Shown here: positions 11,385 to 26,153 of the stretch, piece by piece
How the letters are laid out: every line of letters starts with the position of its first letter
Numbering within the stretch: the first letter of the stretch is position 1
NCBI GenBank assembly: GCA_902615995.1
Contig: CACMRF010000001.1
Coordinates: forward strand, 62,001-126,000
Reading direction: 5' to 3'
From: an uncultured SAR116 cluster alpha proteobacterium
GTDB taxonomy: Bacteria; Pseudomonadota; Alphaproteobacteria; Puniceispirillales; Marisalimonadaceae
Length of the DNA: 64,000 nucleotides
The notes under the pieces: model-generated
Databases searched by the model: none
What the model was told of the DNA's origin: nothing
What the model saw: the letters and a program-made list of their open reading frames with translations, nothing else
Program-made: the position numbers and the translations under genes

Positions 11385-12293
11385 ATGAAAATAAAAACAG
11401 ACATGCCTGAAAATGGTTGGTGGGATAAATTACCAAAAACAACACATAAATGGATTAGGTTAGGTAGGTTCGATAGACCAATAGGAAGTTGGCTATTATT
11501 ACTTCCGTGCCTTTGGACAATTCCAATTTTTTTAAATTCAATAAATAAATTATTTGAAATGTATTTAATATTTATAATCGGTGCTTTTTCAATGAGGGCA
11601 GCTGGCTGTATAATTAACGATCTATGGGACAGGGATATTGACAGAAAAATTTCTAGAACTCGTTTAAGGCCAATTGCAAGTGGAGAAATATCTCCAAAAA
11701 AGGCCTTTGGATTATTAATAATTCTTTTGACAATTTCTTTGTTTTGCTTGTTAAACTTAAATAAATTTACTTGGTTAATTGCTTTATCGTCTCTCCCATT
11801 AATTATATTATATCCACTCGCAAAAAGAATAACAAAATGGCCTCAGTTTGTATTAGGAATAACATTTAGTTGGGGAGTTCCCACAGCATGGGCTGCAACT
11901 AATACAGAATTTAATGTTGGAATTTTTTTTCTTTATTTGGGAACTGTTGCTTGGATCATAGGTTATGACACTATATATGGTTATCAAGATAAATCTGAAG
12001 ATAAAGTCTATAACATAAAAAATACAGCAATCACAACTGAAGATTATTATGTTAAATTTATAATGCTCTTCTACATAATTTCTATTTTAAATTTTCTGAT
12101 AGCAGGTATTATTTTAAAGACACATTTTGGTTGGTATATAGGTCTATTTTTTATGTTTATTCATTTTACATACCAAATTAAAAAGGCAAAAACCATTAAT
12201 AGAACTGGGGCATTACAACTATTTAAATCCAATAAGTTTGCAGGATTATTTTTAACCTTGGGATCAATGTCTAAATTTTTAGAGATGGTCTAA
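11385..12293 (+). CDS. ubiA: 4-hydroxybenzoate polyprenyltransferase
   Basis: Membrane prenyltransferase attaching the polyprenyl tail to 4-hydroxybenzoate in ubiquinone synthesis. The two Asp-rich motifs are INDLWDRDIDRKISRTRLRP and YDTIYGYQDKSEDK. The track extends the ORF 42 codons upstream into a hydrophobic stretch. I use the ATG at 11385 (MKIKTDMPENGWWDKLPK, 302 residues), which matches family length and avoids overlapping rsmE on the other strand. The 3' end overlaps blh convergently by 23 nt. Together with coq7 and a UbiH-like gene in this window it supports aerobic ubiquinone synthesis. Confidence 0.95.
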   Translation: MKIKTDMPENGWWDKLPKTTHKWIRLGRFDRPIGSWLLLLPCLWTIPIFLNSINKLFEMYLIFIIGAFSMRAAGCIINDLWDRDIDRKISRTRLRPIASGEISPKKAFGLLIILLTISLFCLLNLNKFTWLIALSSLPLIILYPLAKRITKWPQFVLGITFSWGVPTAWAATNTEFNVGIFFLYLGTVAWIIGYDTIYGYQDKSEDKVYNIKNTAITTEDYYVKFIMLFYIISILNFLIAGIILKTHFGWYIGLFFMFIHFTYQIKKAKTINRTGALQLFKSNKFAGLFLTLGSMSKFLEMV

Positions 12294-13080
12294 AATATAA
12301 ATCTACTAATATCATATGAGGAAAGGTTAAGGCAGCAAGACCAATAAATGTTACTTTAATTATAGAATGATCTAAAGAAATATTAAAATTTAAATATGTT
12401 AAAATCAAAAAACCTAAAACCCAAGTTAAAAGTGTAAAAAATAAAAACATATTTCTGATATTTTTGTCAGACAAATTATTTCTTAATGATGGCAATATTC
12501 TTTTGATGTGGTTAAAACTATGAATGAAACAAAAGTAAAAAGAAAAAGCAAAAATTGCATTTGTTGTATAAATGATCATAGATATTAAAAAAATACGAAC
12601 AATGTAATTTTTTTTAATTTCATCAAAATTTATATAAAAGTGAAATGGCAATAATATTAACCATAGGTATAAGCCATATTTTAAAATTAGCCAAAGATCA
12701 TCAGTGTTGTGATTATTTAAAAGAATTTGGTAAATTGAATTAACTTCATTGAAATGAAAAAAACTGATTCCAAAAATTACAATACCTCCATTTATATATG
12801 CCGATAACAAACATTTATAGCTTTTTGACCAACTTATATCACCGAGTCCAAAATGAATAATACTTACAAACAAGAAAATAATCAGAGTAATATTAGGAGT
12901 TAAATACCAAATCAATGTAATAGCTAAAGCTAAGAATAAATAACAAAATATAAAAAAAAATTTTGATTTTAAATTCTTATAATAACCTAATGTTAATGCT
13001 ATTGAAGCATCAAAAGCACCATGCGGAACTCCAAAAACAAAAATTAAAATCAAAGATAAGTAATCTAATAAATCAAACAT
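12271..13080 (-). CDS. blh: Beta-carotene 15,15'-dioxygenase, Brp/Blh family
   Basis: Cleaves beta-carotene with O2 into two retinal molecules, supplying the chromophore for the rhodopsin encoded upstream. The 269-residue protein is a polytopic membrane protein. Visible family motifs are GVPHGAFDASIALTLG near the N terminus, IHFGLGDISW, and the later His segments FIHSFNHIKRILP and FPHMILVDLYF; these histidines are likely iron ligands. It is the last gene of the crt block, 10 nt after crtY. It collides with ubiA (23-nt convergent overlap). Confidence 0.93.
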   Translation of the reverse strand: MFDLLDYLSLILIFVFGVPHGAFDASIALTLGYYKNLKSKFFFIFCYLFLALAITLIWYLTPNITLIIFLFVSIIHFGLGDISWSKSYKCLLSAYINGGIVIFGISFFHFNEVNSIYQILLNNHNTDDLWLILKYGLYLWLILLPFHFYINFDEIKKNYIVRIFLISMIIYTTNAIFAFSFYFCFIHSFNHIKRILPSLRNNLSDKNIRNMFLFFTLLTWVLGFLILTYLNFNISLDHSIIKVTFIGLAALTFPHMILVDLYFRPSLKI

Positions 13081-13090
13081 TAATTAATTT

Positions 13091-14185
13091 TCAATTTCTT
13101 TTAATACATTGCCATATTGCACGCAAAAATAAAAGTTTTGGTAAAGAATTTATAATTTTAAACCAAATTTTAAATGTTTGATTACCATTCATAAATAAGG
13201 CCATTTCATCTCCAGATAATTTACTATTCATTCTATAAAATAAATCTGGAAAAATTTTAGGGTTTTTTTCAAGTGCTTTCATAAAAATTTTATCCATAAA
13301 TAAACTGAATTTTGTATGAATTATATTATTTATTTTTAAGTTATTATTTAATTGATAAATAATATTACTAATTTGTTTTTGTATGTTAATAAAAGTGTAT
13401 CCAGACGAAGGTTTTGTTGCTCCACCTCTGCTTCCAATGCTAACAGAGTTTTCTTGAAAAAAATTCATATAGTGCATTGGTATTATCCCTTTTTCTTCCT
13501 TAATAACTTTAAAAAACTTTATATTAAAAAAATTTTTTAAATAAGAATTAATGGCATTTAAATAAAACTTCCTGTTTTCAACATTTTTTGAAAATAAAGT
13601 AGACTCTATTAAAGCTTTGTTCTCTGAAAAGGGTATAAAATAAATAAAATGTAACCCACGTGATTGATCGCACCTAAAATCCATAAGAATAACTGTAGAT
13701 GGGTCAAATTTATTATCGTCAGTCTCAATTGTTAAGCCTATGAAATGCTGCAATAATATATTCTTACAGAAGGCAAGATTCCTACTATCAAAAAAGTAAT
13801 CTCCTTCAATAAGTTTTTCATCAACAAAAAATTTTGAATTTTTATCCGCAACCTTTTTTTTTATGATTTTTACATTTGAATTTTTTATCTTTTCCTTACA
13901 AAAATTTATCCATTTATTTTTATTTATTAAACAGTAAGGATGCTGATACGAAAAAAATGTTTTTTCATTCTCATAATTTATAATTTTCCATTTATTCCAT
14001 TTAAGACAAATTTCATCAAAATCATGAGAATATTTATTTCTCCAAAAACCCCAATAATGATCTTTTTGATTATTTTCCGATCCTAAATAAAATTTAAATA
14101 TAGCGTCTTTAACTTCTTGTGATCTTCTTATAAAAGAAAAACCTGCACAGCCACCACCAAAAATATTTATAATTTTTTTCTTCAT
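13091..14185 (-). CDS. crtY: Lycopene beta-cyclase
   Basis: Flavin-dependent cyclase that closes both ends of lycopene to beta-carotene. The 364-residue protein begins with a dinucleotide-binding loop (IINIFGGGCAGFSFIRR). It also has VILMDFRCDQSRGLHFIYFIPF and the conserved GSRGGATKPSSGYTF segment that marks CrtY. Sequence conservation outside these blocks is low, as is usual for AT-rich marine homologs. Its start overlaps the crtB stop by 4 nt, and blh follows after 10 nt, so crtB-crtY-blh are very likely one message. Confidence 0.92.
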   Translation of the reverse strand: MKKKIINIFGGGCAGFSFIRRSQEVKDAIFKFYLGSENNQKDHYWGFWRNKYSHDFDEICLKWNKWKIINYENEKTFFSYQHPYCLINKNKWINFCKEKIKNSNVKIIKKKVADKNSKFFVDEKLIEGDYFFDSRNLAFCKNILLQHFIGLTIETDDNKFDPSTVILMDFRCDQSRGLHFIYFIPFSENKALIESTLFSKNVENRKFYLNAINSYLKNFFNIKFFKVIKEEKGIIPMHYMNFFQENSVSIGSRGGATKPSSGYTFINIQKQISNIIYQLNNNLKINNIIHTKFSLFMDKIFMKALEKNPKIFPDLFYRMNSKLSGDEMALFMNGNQTFKIWFKIINSLPKLLFLRAIWQCIKRN

Positions 14186-15081
14186 AAAATTTCTTTTAGG
14201 TTTTTATGTAAACTTTGATTATGTTTTGGAAACTTTAATGCCAAAAGTTTAAATATTTTTATAAAAGTTTTAAGTGTAAGTTTAAGCTTTTCAAAATTCG
14301 TCGTGTATATTCTTCCTTTATACCAAATAAATTTATTTTTTTTTAATTTTACGCCAATTTCTCTATATAAATTTGAAGCAATAAAGATAGCAATTCTGAA
14401 CTTTAGATTTAGAAAAACTAATCCTTTATTTCCACTTTTGTAATATAATTCAGAAATCACTAAAATTTTTTTTATGGCATCTTTTAAAATTGAGTGATTT
14501 GAATGATTATGATCTTTAGTTAAAATTAAGATTTCCTTGGGAGTTAAATTGTTGATAAATTTACCTGGCAAGTAACGTCTATTAAGTTTTGCATCTTCTT
14601 CTATATCCCTAAGTATGTTTGTAAGCTGCATAGCTATACCTAAATCAGTAGCAAAATTAAAAGAATTTTTATTTTTACATTCAAGAGCAATACACATTAA
14701 CACACCTACAGTACCAGCAACTCTGTAACAATATAAAATTAATTCTTTTTCACTCTTTATTCTAACTGATTTTTGATCAAAGATTAAACCATGCATAAGA
14801 TCTATAATTTTACTTTTGGCTAACTTACATTTTTTCAAATAACTAGGGACATATATATTATTTTCTTCTAATTTTGGGTAATCATTTTTCTTAAATAAAT
14901 TTAAAATATAGTTTAACTTTATTAAATTTTTATCTTTTGTTTTGGTATCAGCTATATCATCCAATAATCTACAAAAAGAGTATAATTCAGCACACCTAAT
15001 AAGATATTTTTTTGGTAATAATTTACCAGCCCAATAAAAACTTTTTCCATTTTGTCTTAAAATTTCTAGATAATTACTCAT
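14182..15081 (-). CDS. crtB: Phytoene synthase
   Basis: Condenses two geranylgeranyl diphosphates to phytoene. The two Asp-rich Mg-binding motifs are present: RLLDDIADTK (about residues 38-47) and QLTNILRDIEEDAKLNRRYLPG. The start SNYLEILRQNGKSFYWAGKLLP and the 299-residue length fit bacterial CrtB. It overlaps crtI by 8 nt and crtY by 4 nt. No GGPP synthase (crtE) lies in this cluster, so the substrate must come from an isoprenoid gene elsewhere in the genome. Confidence 0.95.
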   Translation of the reverse strand: MSNYLEILRQNGKSFYWAGKLLPKKYLIRCAELYSFCRLLDDIADTKTKDKNLIKLNYILNLFKKNDYPKLEENNIYVPSYLKKCKLAKSKIIDLMHGLIFDQKSVRIKSEKELILYCYRVAGTVGVLMCIALECKNKNSFNFATDLGIAMQLTNILRDIEEDAKLNRRYLPGKFINNLTPKEILILTKDHNHSNHSILKDAIKKILVISELYYKSGNKGLVFLNLKFRIAIFIASNLYREIGVKLKKNKFIWYKGRIYTTNFEKLKLTLKTFIKIFKLLALKFPKHNQSLHKNLKEIL

Positions 15082-16552
15082 TTAATATAATATTTTCAAC
15101 CACTTTTGCTGATGATAAAACACCTGGTATACCTGCTCCAGGATGAGCTCCAGATGATGAAAAATATAAATTCTTAATATGACGGTCCTTATTATGGTAT
15201 CTAAACCAAGCTGATTGTAAAAATATAGGAGCAATTGAAAAACCAGCGCCGTGCATTGATCTATATTGATTTTTAAATTCATTCGGTGTCATATAAAAAT
15301 CATTACAAATGCTTTGTTTTAATTTTGGCAATATAGTTTTATCTAAACTTTCAATTATTCTTTGTTTTAGATTATCTCCTTCAATCTTCCAATCTACTTT
15401 ACCTTGTAAATTTGGAACAGGACATAAAACATAAAAACTATCGCACCCCTTAGGGGCAAAACTTTTATCTGTAGCTGTAGGTCTATGAATATAAAGAGAA
15501 AAATCTTTGGCAAGAATTTTCTTATCAAATATATCTTTTAACAAACCCTTAAATCTTTTTCCCATCCATATAGTATGATGTGCAACTTTTGGATATTTTT
15601 TAGTTGTTCCAAAAAAAAGAACAAACATACCCATAGAATACTTTGTAAAAAATTCAGGTAAAAATTTTTTTCTTTTTCTTGTTTTTAAAATTTCTTTATA
15701 GAATGTTGGTGGATCACCATTAAAAACTAACTTATCACATTTATAAAGATTATTATTATTATCTGATATAGATACAATCCTTCCATTTTCTAAGTTAACA
15801 TTTTTTATATCTACATTTAATTTTATTTCAATTTTATGCCTTAACATTAATTTTTTTAATTCTGTTATAATTTTACCTGTTCCACCCATACAAAAATATA
15901 CACCCCAATTTCTTTCTAGAAAGTGAATTAACGCGTAAATAGAAGTTGTGTTAAAAGGATTTCCTCCAACTAGCAAAGGATGGATTGAAAATGCTGAACA
16001 TATTTTCGGATTTTTTAAGTATCTTCCAACTAATTGAGAAACCGTTAAATGAGCTTTTAATTTAATTAACGCAGGTATTTGTTTGCACATGAACCAAAAG
16101 GAATTAAAAGGCTTATCAGATAATTGAGTAAACCCAATATCAAAAATATCTTTTGAAATTTTCAATAACTTTTCATAGCCTTCCGCGTCATCCTTAGAGA
16201 ATTTTTTAATTTCAAGTTTTGTATCTTTTACAGTTCTACGATAGTCAAAAGATGATTTATCATAAAAATAAAATCTGTACCATGGATCTAAAGCAACAAA
16301 ATTTAGATATTTTTCTCTATTCTCTCCAAATAAATTAAATAACTCGTCAAACATAAACGGAGCAGTAATTACTGTAGGTCCAGCATCGTGCTTAAATCCT
16401 TTTAAATTAAAAACTTGGGCTCTACCACCAATTTCTGGTAATCGATCAATCAAAGTTACTTCATGTCCTAAAGCTTTTAGTCTAAGAGCACTTGCAATAC
16501 CACCAAAACCTGATCCAACAACAATTGAACTTATTTTTTTTTTCTTGCTCAT
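15074..16552 (-). CDS. crtI: Phytoene desaturase
   Basis: FAD-dependent desaturase converting phytoene to lycopene. The 492-residue protein has an N-terminal Rossmann motif SSIVVGSGFGGIASALRL with DRLPEIGGRAQVF. Substrate-domain signatures are FKHDAGPTVITAPFMFDELF and the C-terminal FSSSGAHPGAGIPGVLSSAK, characteristic of CrtI rather than plant-type PDS. It is the first gene after the opsin and begins just beyond the hairpin terminator that follows the opsin. It is therefore transcribed by readthrough or by its own promoter in the short gap. crtB begins within its last 8 nt. Confidence 0.96.
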   Translation of the reverse strand: MSKKKKISSIVVGSGFGGIASALRLKALGHEVTLIDRLPEIGGRAQVFNLKGFKHDAGPTVITAPFMFDELFNLFGENREKYLNFVALDPWYRFYFYDKSSFDYRRTVKDTKLEIKKFSKDDAEGYEKLLKISKDIFDIGFTQLSDKPFNSFWFMCKQIPALIKLKAHLTVSQLVGRYLKNPKICSAFSIHPLLVGGNPFNTTSIYALIHFLERNWGVYFCMGGTGKIITELKKLMLRHKIEIKLNVDIKNVNLENGRIVSISDNNNNLYKCDKLVFNGDPPTFYKEILKTRKRKKFLPEFFTKYSMGMFVLFFGTTKKYPKVAHHTIWMGKRFKGLLKDIFDKKILAKDFSLYIHRPTATDKSFAPKGCDSFYVLCPVPNLQGKVDWKIEGDNLKQRIIESLDKTILPKLKQSICNDFYMTPNEFKNQYRSMHGAGFSIAPIFLQSAWFRYHNKDRHIKNLYFSSSGAHPGAGIPGVLSSAKVVENIILNE

Positions 16553-16576
16553 TTTAAATTATTTTAAATTTAGATT

Positions 16577-16605
16577 AAAAAAAAAGCCAGTCCAAAAGGA
16601 CTGGC
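16577..16605 (-). terminator. Rho-independent terminator after proteorhodopsin
   Basis: On the minus strand the sequence reads GCCAGTCC-TTTT-GGACTGGC followed by nine T. The stem is a perfect 8 bp, GC-rich in an otherwise AT-rich region, with a four-base loop and a full U-tract. It lies about 22 nt downstream of the opsin stop and just before crtI. It should end or sharply reduce opsin transcription before the crt genes. Confidence 0.9.
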
Positions 16606-16627
16606 CTTTATAATAATAATGTTAAAT

Positions 16628-17389
16628 TTAAGCTTTTGCAGTAGAGTCCGCAGCTGCCCAAATTGCTAAACAAAATCCAATTTTGTTTAGTACGTCAGCT
16701 ATGTTATAAATCATATTTAAACTGTTAGCGTCTGCGCCTCCAGCCATATAACCTACAAAATAACCGATTGGATAAATTGCCCAACCAATGGTTACAATCC
16801 ATCTCATTGTCGAAAAACCTGATTGTACTGCTGCAGGTGCATCAGATGCACTTACTTTACCAGCTTCACCAGCAAAGATTTCATACAGAATGTAAATCCA
16901 ACCAGCCATTCCAATAACAAAACCAAGTGTAGCATTTATAAATCCAGCTTCACCTAAATATCCACCAACAAGCATTATTACGGATCCTATAAATAGTCTC
17001 CAGAATACACCCATTGCAATAGTTGTGCATGCTGCAAGTATAATGTAGAACTCTATCATTTGTAATGGAACAGTAATAATCCAGTCTACATATCTAAAAA
17101 CAGTAGGTGATGCTCCTGTGGAAACCCAAACATCTCTCATGTAAAAATAATGGACTGCTGCCACCATACATACTAAGCCGCCAACAACTAAAGATGTTCT
17201 CCATTTGCCTTCAAATCTTAATGATTCTAAGAAAAAGAATGTGGCTGCTGCTACCATAGCAATAGAGATGATCCAAAAAGTGATACCTACTGGATCTGTA
17301 GGCTCTAAGTTGCCAGAAGCATAACTTAGAGTTGGTAGTCCAGCAAACAATATTGCTGGTAATATATATTTTAAAAATTTGAACGACAT
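16628..17389 (-). CDS. Proteorhodopsin, light-driven proton pump, predicted blue-absorbing
   Basis: Seven-helix retinal protein that exports protons in light. A signal peptide (about residues 1-24, ...LSYASG) precedes the helices. In helix C, RYVDWIITVPLQMIEFYI gives the proton-pump residues D102 (acceptor), T106 and E113 (donor), the DTE pattern of proteorhodopsins. The tuning position (105 in the reference numbering) is Q110, which marks blue-absorbing variants. H80 (AVHYFYM) matches the conserved His partner of the acceptor. The Schiff-base lysine is K236 in IADVLNKIGF, with D232 as counterion. A strong GGGGAGG ribosome binding site precedes the ATG, better than most in the window, suggesting high expression. 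The retinal pathway genes follow directly. Confidence 0.98.
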   Translation of the reverse strand: MSFKFLKYILPAILFAGLPTLSYASGNLEPTDPVGITFWIISIAMVAAATFFFLESLRFEGKWRTSLVVGGLVCMVAAVHYFYMRDVWVSTGASPTVFRYVDWIITVPLQMIEFYIILAACTTIAMGVFWRLFIGSVIMLVGGYLGEAGFINATLGFVIGMAGWIYILYEIFAGEAGKVSASDAPAAVQSGFSTMRWIVTIGWAIYPIGYFVGYMAGGADANSLNMIYNIADVLNKIGFCLAIWAAADSTAKA

Positions 17390-17447
17390 TAAGGACCTCC
17401 CCTATAAGTTAAAATTCGCTCGTAATTAGAATACACTAATTTTGATG

Positions 17448-17476
17448 AGAATATGTTTTAAATGAATATGAATCAA
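17448..17476 (-). promoter_or_regulatory. Candidate sigma-70 promoter for proteorhodopsin
   Basis: Read on the minus strand: TTGATT, 17-nt spacer, TATTCT. This would start transcription about 50 nt upstream of the opsin ATG. The spacing is ideal and the location sensible, but both hexamers deviate from consensus and the region is AT-rich. The rest of the 250-nt gap up to the next gene shows no other clear structure. Confidence 0.35.
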
Positions 17477-17639: not shown

Positions 17640-18413
17640 TTAATAAATATTGTTACCACTAACTTTTAAATCCAGAATTTTCCAAGGGACATGCTTAGGC
17701 AAAAAGCTTTTTTTTGACATTTTGTCGATTAATGAGAGTCTTTTACTTTTATTAGAAATAAAATTTTTTAACCAAGTTTCTAAAGAAGTTTGACCATCAG
17801 GATTTTCTAAAAATAATTTATTTAATGCTTGATACTCATTAATAGATGAATGTGTATTTGCATTTGATTTTATTTTTTTCAATCTCAATGGTCCATTTCC
17901 ATCAAACAAATACCCTCCTCTAGTTGAAATGTACCCAAAAATAGAGCCAGAATAATCATCTTCTTGAATAGTAACTGTATTTTTATCTAATTCTACGTAA
18001 TGATAAGCTATTCCCAAACCCTCTGAAAGGTGCATAATTTGTAATTGATCATGATTTAACCAAAGCAAATTCAAATCAGACACTGATCCTTCACAAGGCC
18101 ACTGAGTTGCAGGTATAGAACCGTATGCTGACATTGAAGCCGCGTAAACAATGACAGAATTATATAATTTTGCTGGAGTTACACATAGATTCTCTTTTAC
18201 ACCAAATTTATTTTTTAATTGATATGGAGATCTATTAGATCCAATGGATAAAATTGGAACTCTATCTTTAAGTGATATGTGTATCCCTTGATAAAATTTT
18301 CTATTCTTGAATGTAAATGAGGTTGTAGGTGCTTTATAAGGGTAACTTATTGCTTTTTCAAACCAGTTATATTCTGGGAAATATTTTTTATCTGCATGAA
18401 CAAAACATTCCAT
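17640..18413 (-). CDS. Conserved-looking hypothetical protein downstream of argC
   Basis: 257 residues, soluble, with no signal peptide or membrane helix. I do not recognise a named family. Visible blocks: FYQGIHISLKDRVPILSIGSNRSPYQL (the segment GSNRSPYQLKNKFG looks like a conserved motif), YAASMSAYGSIPATQWPCEGS, LSEGLGIAYHYVELD and GYISTRGGYLFDGNGPLRL. The GSNRSP loop is faintly reminiscent of the substrate loop of gamma-glutamylcyclotransferase-fold proteins, but this is not enough to assign a function. It starts 5 nt after the argC stop, so it is cotranscribed with argC and perhaps regulated with arginine synthesis. It ends 250 nt before the opsin. Confidence 0.8.
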   Translation of the reverse strand: MECFVHADKKYFPEYNWFEKAISYPYKAPTTSFTFKNRKFYQGIHISLKDRVPILSIGSNRSPYQLKNKFGVKENLCVTPAKLYNSVIVYAASMSAYGSIPATQWPCEGSVSDLNLLWLNHDQLQIMHLSEGLGIAYHYVELDKNTVTIQEDDYSGSIFGYISTRGGYLFDGNGPLRLKKIKSNANTHSSINEYQALNKLFLENPDGQTSLETWLKNFISNKSKRLSLIDKMSKKSFLPKHVPWKILDLKVSGNNIY

Positions 18414-25170: not shown

Positions 25171-26153
25171 CTTTTCTTTATAATTTGTGGTACTCAAACT
25201 CATTACAATACAAATTAATTTCCTTAATGCTTTACCCTTTTTCTTTATTATGGATCATTATAGACAAGTTAAAATTTCTTGTGATAAAACCTTACACTTC
25301 TCATCTAAAAATAATATGTGTAGGTAATATAAATGTAGGTGGAACTGGAAAAACACCAATATCAATATTTATATTTAAAATTCTAAAAAAAATGGGACAT
25401 AATCCCATATTTTTGACATCTGGCTATAAAGGTAAAATTTCTAAACCTTGTATAGCTAACAATGATGTTACCCTCTTTGGAGATGAAGCTATAATTTTAA
25501 AAAATATAGGACCAACAGTTGTATCAAAGAATAAGTTAGTGGGAGTCAAATATATTGAGAACTTAAACTCAAAAAAGAAAATTTACGATATTATAGTTAT
25601 GGATGATGGCTTACAAAATTATTCAATAGCAAAAGATTTATGTTTTTTGACTATTGATAGAAAATCATTATTTGGAAATGAGTTTTGTTTACCCTCAGGT
25701 CCGTTAAGACAATCATTAAATTCATGCAAAAAAAATATTAATAAAATTATTTTAACTGGAAATCGAAATTTTAAAAAAAATCAAACTATTTTTAATAGTG
25801 ATGTATTAAACAGTTATATAAAAGTTGAAAAAGTTTCTGTTAAAAAAAAATATTTAGCTTTCTCTGGCTTAGGTAATAACCAAAAATTCTTAGATACTCT
25901 TAAAAGCGCTAATTATGATGTAACTTTAACAAAGGAATTTGAAGATCATCATAATTATAAAGAAAATGAAATAATTGATCTTATAAAACTTTCAAATGAT
26001 AATAACCTTACACTAATAACCACTGAAAAAGACATTGTTAAAATACCAAAAAAGTATCATTTTAAAATTAAGTGCTTAAAAATGAAAATAGAATTTGATA
26101 AAAATGATTTAATTAGCTTAAGGTTATTATTAAAACAGAAGTTAAATGACTGA
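25167..26153 (+). CDS. lpxK: Tetraacyldisaccharide 4'-kinase
   Basis: Phosphorylates the 4' position of the lipid A disaccharide using ATP. The 328-residue protein has an N-terminal membrane-associated helix, then the P-loop in ICVGNINVGGTGKTPI and the catalytic-region motif IVMDDGLQNYS. The family segment EFEDHHNY(K) and LITTEKDIVKIP are present near the C terminus. It overlaps waaA by 4 nt and lpxL by 8 nt, consistent with translational coupling of the lipid A operon. Confidence 0.95.
   Translation: MTFLYNLWYSNSLQYKLISLMLYPFSLLWIIIDKLKFLVIKPYTSHLKIICVGNINVGGTGKTPISIFIFKILKKMGHNPIFLTSGYKGKISKPCIANNDVTLFGDEAIILKNIGPTVVSKNKLVGVKYIENLNSKKKIYDIIVMDDGLQNYSIAKDLCFLTIDRKSLFGNEFCLPSGPLRQSLNSCKKNINKIILTGNRNFKKNQTIFNSDVLNSYIKVEKVSVKKKYLAFSGLGNNQKFLDTLKSANYDVTLTKEFEDHHNYKENEIIDLIKLSNDNNLTLITTEKDIVKIPKKYHFKIKCLKMKIEFDKNDLISLRLLLKQKLND

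Follow-up and report, generated by a model that had tools for sequence, protein, structure and literature searches.

Genes and expression signals at the opsin locus

On the minus strand of the window, that is, the whole 64-kb stretch of DNA that was analysed, which stems from an uncultured SAR116 alphaproteobacterium, a gene for a 253-aa proteorhodopsin (16628..17389; Pfam Bac_rhodopsin, 1.3e-41; solved proteorhodopsins, 1.7e-76) heads a cluster of co-directional genes. It is followed by crtI (15074..16552), a phytoene desaturase-like gene with no Shine-Dalgarno (SD) sequence (Pfam Amino_oxidase/NAD_binding_8, its identity as crtI coming from synteny), crtB (14182..15081; phytoene synthase; SQS_PSY, 6e-41), which overlaps crtI by 8 nt, crtY (13091..14185; lycopene cyclase; Lycopene_cycl, 3.8e-38), which overlaps crtB by 4 nt, and blh (12271..13080; beta-carotene 15,15'-dioxygenase; BCD, 2e-45), the last gene, behind which there is no hairpin. 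The crtY-blh gap is 10 nt, and the 75-nt opsin|crtI junction is the sole wide one in the cluster. The residue at the tuning position of the opsin is Gln (TVPLQ), which makes it a blue type.

The opsin gene is well equipped with expression signals. A putative -35 element (TTGATT, 17471..17476, minus strand; 4/6 consensus) is invariant in nine loci of the genus and in genome G006, and a putative -10 element (TATTCT, 17448..17453, minus strand) is invariant in the same 10 loci, in which the spacer between the two is a constant 17 nt of variable sequence. With 8/12 consensus matches, this pair is likely to be the opsin promoter. The strong GGGGAGG ribosome site singled out in the initial annotation can be read directly at 17396..17402 (minus strand) and is conserved in the genus; the opsin is one of only three among 58 ORFs of at least 100 aa with at least six SD-like bases, while crtI, crtB, crtY and blh have at most three in the same census.

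Two observations concern the surroundings of the cluster. Upstream of the opsin lies orf257 (17640-18413, minus strand), the 257-aa product of which has no Pfam match; within the family, this gene is conserved as a neighbour of both argC and the opsin. As for crtE, it is missing from the cluster in the family of the window; in other SAR116 families the opsin-crtI gap is ~1.2 kb, which leaves room for it. A 308-aa polyprenyl synthase that could supply GGPP or FPP is encoded elsewhere in 12/13 genomes of the genus (G000:C1:17475-18194), and ispA has been reported missing in low-GC SAR116 (PMC8547437).

A hairpin and U-tract between opsin and crtI

Read on the minus strand, the junction consists of the opsin stop, 22 nt, GCCAGUCC-UUUU-GGACUGGC, nine U, 24 nt and the crtI start. 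The hairpin core (16586..16605), which is found at the same position in relatives, has arms at 16586-16593 / 16598-16605 (GCCAGUCC/GGACUGGC) that form 8 perfect pairs, a 4-nt UUUU loop (16594-16597) and an energy of -19.3 kcal/mol. If the outer A-U and G-U pairs between the flanking AAAG and UUUU are included, the helix extends to 12 bp (16582-16609). The U-tract (16577..16585), read directly, abuts the stem with a gap of 0. A stable, G-C-rich hairpin with a short loop and a contiguous U9 are thus both present at the junction, which makes this by its structure a textbook intrinsic terminator, an element of a known kind, and we infer that it terminates transcription in this SAR116 organism. The initial annotation had placed hairpin and U-tract at 16577-16605, which is exact for U-tract, stem and loop alike; its 'perfect GC stem' of 8 bp is right about the pairing and slightly loose about the composition, since 6 of the 8 pairs are G-C.

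Folding of the 78 nt from opsin stop to crtI start yields -21.9 kcal/mol, vs -7.6 +/- 2.5 for shuffled sequences (z = -5.8), and 0/200 shuffles are equally good. When a strict rule is applied (a stem of 5 or more pairs including 4 G-C, 6 or more T among 8 nt, and an energy of -10 kcal/mol or better), the opsin terminator is the only site on either strand of the window, and shuffled windows contain a mean of 0.6 sites with a best energy of -16.0. Of the two clear hairpins in 64 kb in the earlier description, the strict rule retains the opsin one; the other one meant was probably 25392-25408, which has only 3 G-C pairs. A chance hairpin in AT-rich DNA is ruled out by the shuffles together with the neighbouring junctions. 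Two congeners likewise have few strict intrinsic terminators, 4 over 238 kb in one and 5 over 160 kb in the other, and in each of them the opsin's is the strongest. Most other transcript ends in the genus are presumably Rho-dependent, since the Rho gene is present in 10/13 of its (incomplete) genomes.

Conservation of the hairpin among relatives

The junction was compared in 20-kb stretches from 100 relatives and 80 named loci, and all counts refer to distinct sequences, which are not independent evolutionary events. In 118/123 distinct opsin 3' regions, the 80 nt behind the stop contain a hairpin with an energy of -14 kcal/mol or lower; the rest mostly have weaker, bulged or longer-looped hairpins. 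Across SAR116, SAR11, HIMB59, beta- and gammaproteobacterial loci, 130/142 distinct opsin 3' ends have a hairpin, as do 4/304 other cluster ends in the same loci (crtI 1/81, crtB 2/89, crtY 1/76, blh 0/58) and 0/41 ends of the upstream orf257. In sequence from the genus, a hairpin is found in 7/89 co-directional gaps (8%), the opsin's own counted. The hairpin as a generic 3' end of any operon was rejected because the true end of the cluster, behind blh, is hairpin-free in all 58 loci.

SAR11-order opsin loci have the hairpin in nearly all cases, mostly with U7-U8, regardless of the next gene, and among the 1.2-Mb SAR11-type genomes of the G459 order the terminator stays behind the opsin whether the neighbour is co-directional or convergent, so it is an element of the opsin gene and not of the crt genes. 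Position and structure are conserved between clades, and stem sequences are unrelated: GCCAGYCC in the genus of the window, GCCUGUAGG in its sister genus, CCAGGCAAG in HIMB59-like loci, GGGCGAGUAUG or GGGGCC in SAR11-type genomes and GGCUCGCUG in gammaproteobacterial loci. In covariation alignments built from extracted hairpin cores, the 17 distinct stems of the sister genera are 100% paired (187 cells), two pairs are changed on both sides (6 double-change cells), and the covariation score is reached by 0/500 shuffles; the genus of the window alone, with 5 sequences, is too shallow for a covariation signal. These compensatory changes in the sister genera, and the unrelated stems elsewhere, argue that structure rather than sequence is under selection.

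Several individual loci are worth mentioning in their own right. In L043 (G006), which belongs to the same genus, argC and orf257 are 93-95% identical and the opsin promoter and SD sequence are conserved; the opsin is only 69% and crtI 79% identical, the terminator stem is different, and the tuning position is Leu instead of Gln (green instead of blue). From these comparisons, the opsin has apparently been exchanged together with its terminator. In L343-L349 (Methylophilaceae), the crt cluster begins with a pair of neighbouring opsins from different subfamilies, and the hairpin lies behind the first only. A putatively viral locus, L303 (IMGVR_UViG_3300046323_000337, filed as viral), has an opsin (~41% identical) followed by a hairpin and U7. 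Finally, the stretch from U-tract to crtI in the window (16553-16576, minus strand) is unusually conserved in the genus and is a possible leaderless promoter.

Probable limited readthrough, its rivals and known systems

Measured transcript levels across such a junction come from the OM43 betaproteobacterium NB0046, for which PMC5120137 (Table 1) gives 16,208/36,814/27,421 opsin and 522/630/673 crtE transcripts per 1000 cells in three conditions, that is, opsin/crtE ratios of 31, 58 and 41, which fall to ~10 in nutrient-depleted cells. The steps further down the crt genes are gentle (at most about 3.5-fold), and depletion lowers opsin 11-25-fold and crtE 3.6-4.6-fold (PMC5120137). In OM43-type genomes – members of the NB0046 family that share its gene order, opsin-crtE-crtI-crtB-crtY-blh, rather than NB0046 itself – a hairpin with U7-U8 sits at opsin|crtE. 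If mRNA half-lives are similar, these ratios correspond to a readthrough of 2-3% in growing cells; differing half-lives would also give a drop. Since the ratio shifts on depletion, a constant share of readthrough does not fully account for crt mRNA, which hints at a small extra source of crt transcript or at decay effects in depleted cells.

It is quite probable, in our judgement, that hairpin and U9 are an operon-internal terminator with limited readthrough to the crt genes from one opsin promoter, as we infer for this organism. The terminator would end most transcripts begun at the opsin promoter, leaving the cell with an abundant, short, well-translated opsin mRNA, and a minority of RNA polymerases, probably a few per cent, would read through to make crtI-crtB-crtY-blh mRNA. 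Enzyme mRNA would then be far below opsin mRNA and yet follow the same promoter, to which a weak additional source of crt transcription is a possible complement. Partial readthrough was one of two alternatives offered in the initial annotation and gains support from (i) the conservation of the hairpin, (ii) its compensatory changes, (iii) the hairpin-free other junctions, (iv) the missing promoter room in relatives and (v) the drop measured in OM43.

The other alternative, two separately controlled units in which the terminator fully closes the opsin unit and crtI is served by a promoter of its own, perhaps a leaderless one just past the U-tract, we regard as unlikely. The 18 nt past the U-tract do show 92% pairwise identity in the genus, compared with 66% in the stretch of equal length just ahead of the stem, a TANNNT lies 8 nt ahead of the crtI ATG in 9/9 genus loci with the window-type opsin, and the OM43 opsin/crtE ratios are inconstant (PMC5120137). 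However, TANNNT is frequent in DNA of 28% GC, 8 of the 9 loci are close relatives, and the region is not enriched in promoter-like sites over shuffles, none being listed ahead of crtI. Several relatives also have no promoter room between U-tract and next start codon: in L043 (UUUUUUUAUG) the U-tract runs straight into the crtI start, and in OM43-type genomes crtE starts 3 nt past the U-tract. With 0-3 nt there is no space for a promoter, so the downstream genes in these genomes must be transcribed through the hairpin, by polymerases that started either at the opsin promoter or inside the opsin gene. The unequal factors by which OM43 opsin and crt levels change between conditions (PMC5120137) could also be read as a sign of a regulated attenuator or riboswitch, in which an alternative fold or a ligand such as retinal sets readthrough. 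We consider this very improbable, as the opsin-crtI fold has one dominant hairpin and the poor conservation of the 18 nt before the stem argues that there is no conserved anti-terminator. A riboswitch or described RNA family was set aside because an Rfam search of the junction returned nothing above threshold, its one sub-threshold match (E 0.78) being on the opposite strand.

A role after transcription deserves separate consideration, namely that the hairpin is mainly a barrier to 3'-exonucleases, a long opsin-crt transcript being cut, its crt part decaying and its opsin part surviving. There are decay-hairpin precedents in the Rhodobacter puf operon (PMC6238624, PMC5927463), and many GC-richer relatives (e.g. 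L051, L059-L063 and L070-L078) have a hairpin without a U-tract; in at least one such genome, G058, U-tract terminators are present at ordinary convergent gene ends. Above 40% GC, 19/46 loci have at most 3 T of 8 and still have the hairpin, and in L070-L072, L075, L077 and L078 (SAR116 order, family f2) its loop contains a run of 7-10 C and there is no U-tract. Since these GC-richer relatives keep the hairpin and lose the U-tract, a second, puf-like role as mRNA-decay barrier is plausible in such lineages by analogy, and is not needed for the window. As the main function of the hairpin, we give it little credence, because every one of the 69 distinct loci under 33% GC has at least 6 T in the 8 nt past the stem, and the full U-tract found there and in the window would be superfluous for a pure decay barrier.

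More tentatively, and with rather less confidence than for termination with limited readthrough in the window itself, the hairpin behind the first opsin may be a general, selected control element of proteobacterial rhodopsin-chromophore operons, which would survive sequence turnover, opsin exchange and even loss of the U-tract (passing from termination to decay protection) and fix the ratio of opsin to retinal enzymes. Proteorhodopsin is among the most abundant marine light-harvesting systems. To our knowledge, little work has addressed the balance that cells strike between tens of opsin mRNAs and the few mRNAs needed for the pigment enzymes. A single conserved hairpin would be a simple, testable answer, seemingly applicable to SAR116, HIMB59-like and OM43 clusters alike, and it would imply for metatranscriptomes that opsin and crt reads need not match, even within one operon. 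Our literature search did not find a terminator described between proteorhodopsin and crt genes, which is no proof of absence, and the accessible part of the NB0046 study contains no discussion of one (PMC5120137); the near-universal, sequence-independent placement of a hairpin behind the opsin thus appears to be undescribed in the literature searched.

How does this junction compare with known systems? Operon-internal readthrough terminators likewise place a GC hairpin and U-tract between a gene whose product is required in excess and co-directional genes of low need; here, by comparison, readthrough is predicted, and the post-opsin placement recurs across classes. The rhodopsin-crtEIBY-blh cluster of OM43 NB0046 also has its opsin first, with a 31-58-fold drop at the junction (PMC5120137), and differs in having an opsin of another subfamily (~34% identical to the betaproteobacterial proteorhodopsin query) and in the presence of crtE. 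Rhodobacter puf (pufBA | pufLMX) is likewise a phototrophy operon, with a hairpin right behind the excess-product gene and a similar outcome. However, the puf hairpin, which is stable and has no uridine tract, acts by differential mRNA decay, whereas the window has U9, a complete U-tract that speaks for termination; the resemblance to puf is closer in some GC-richer SAR116 relatives than in the window.
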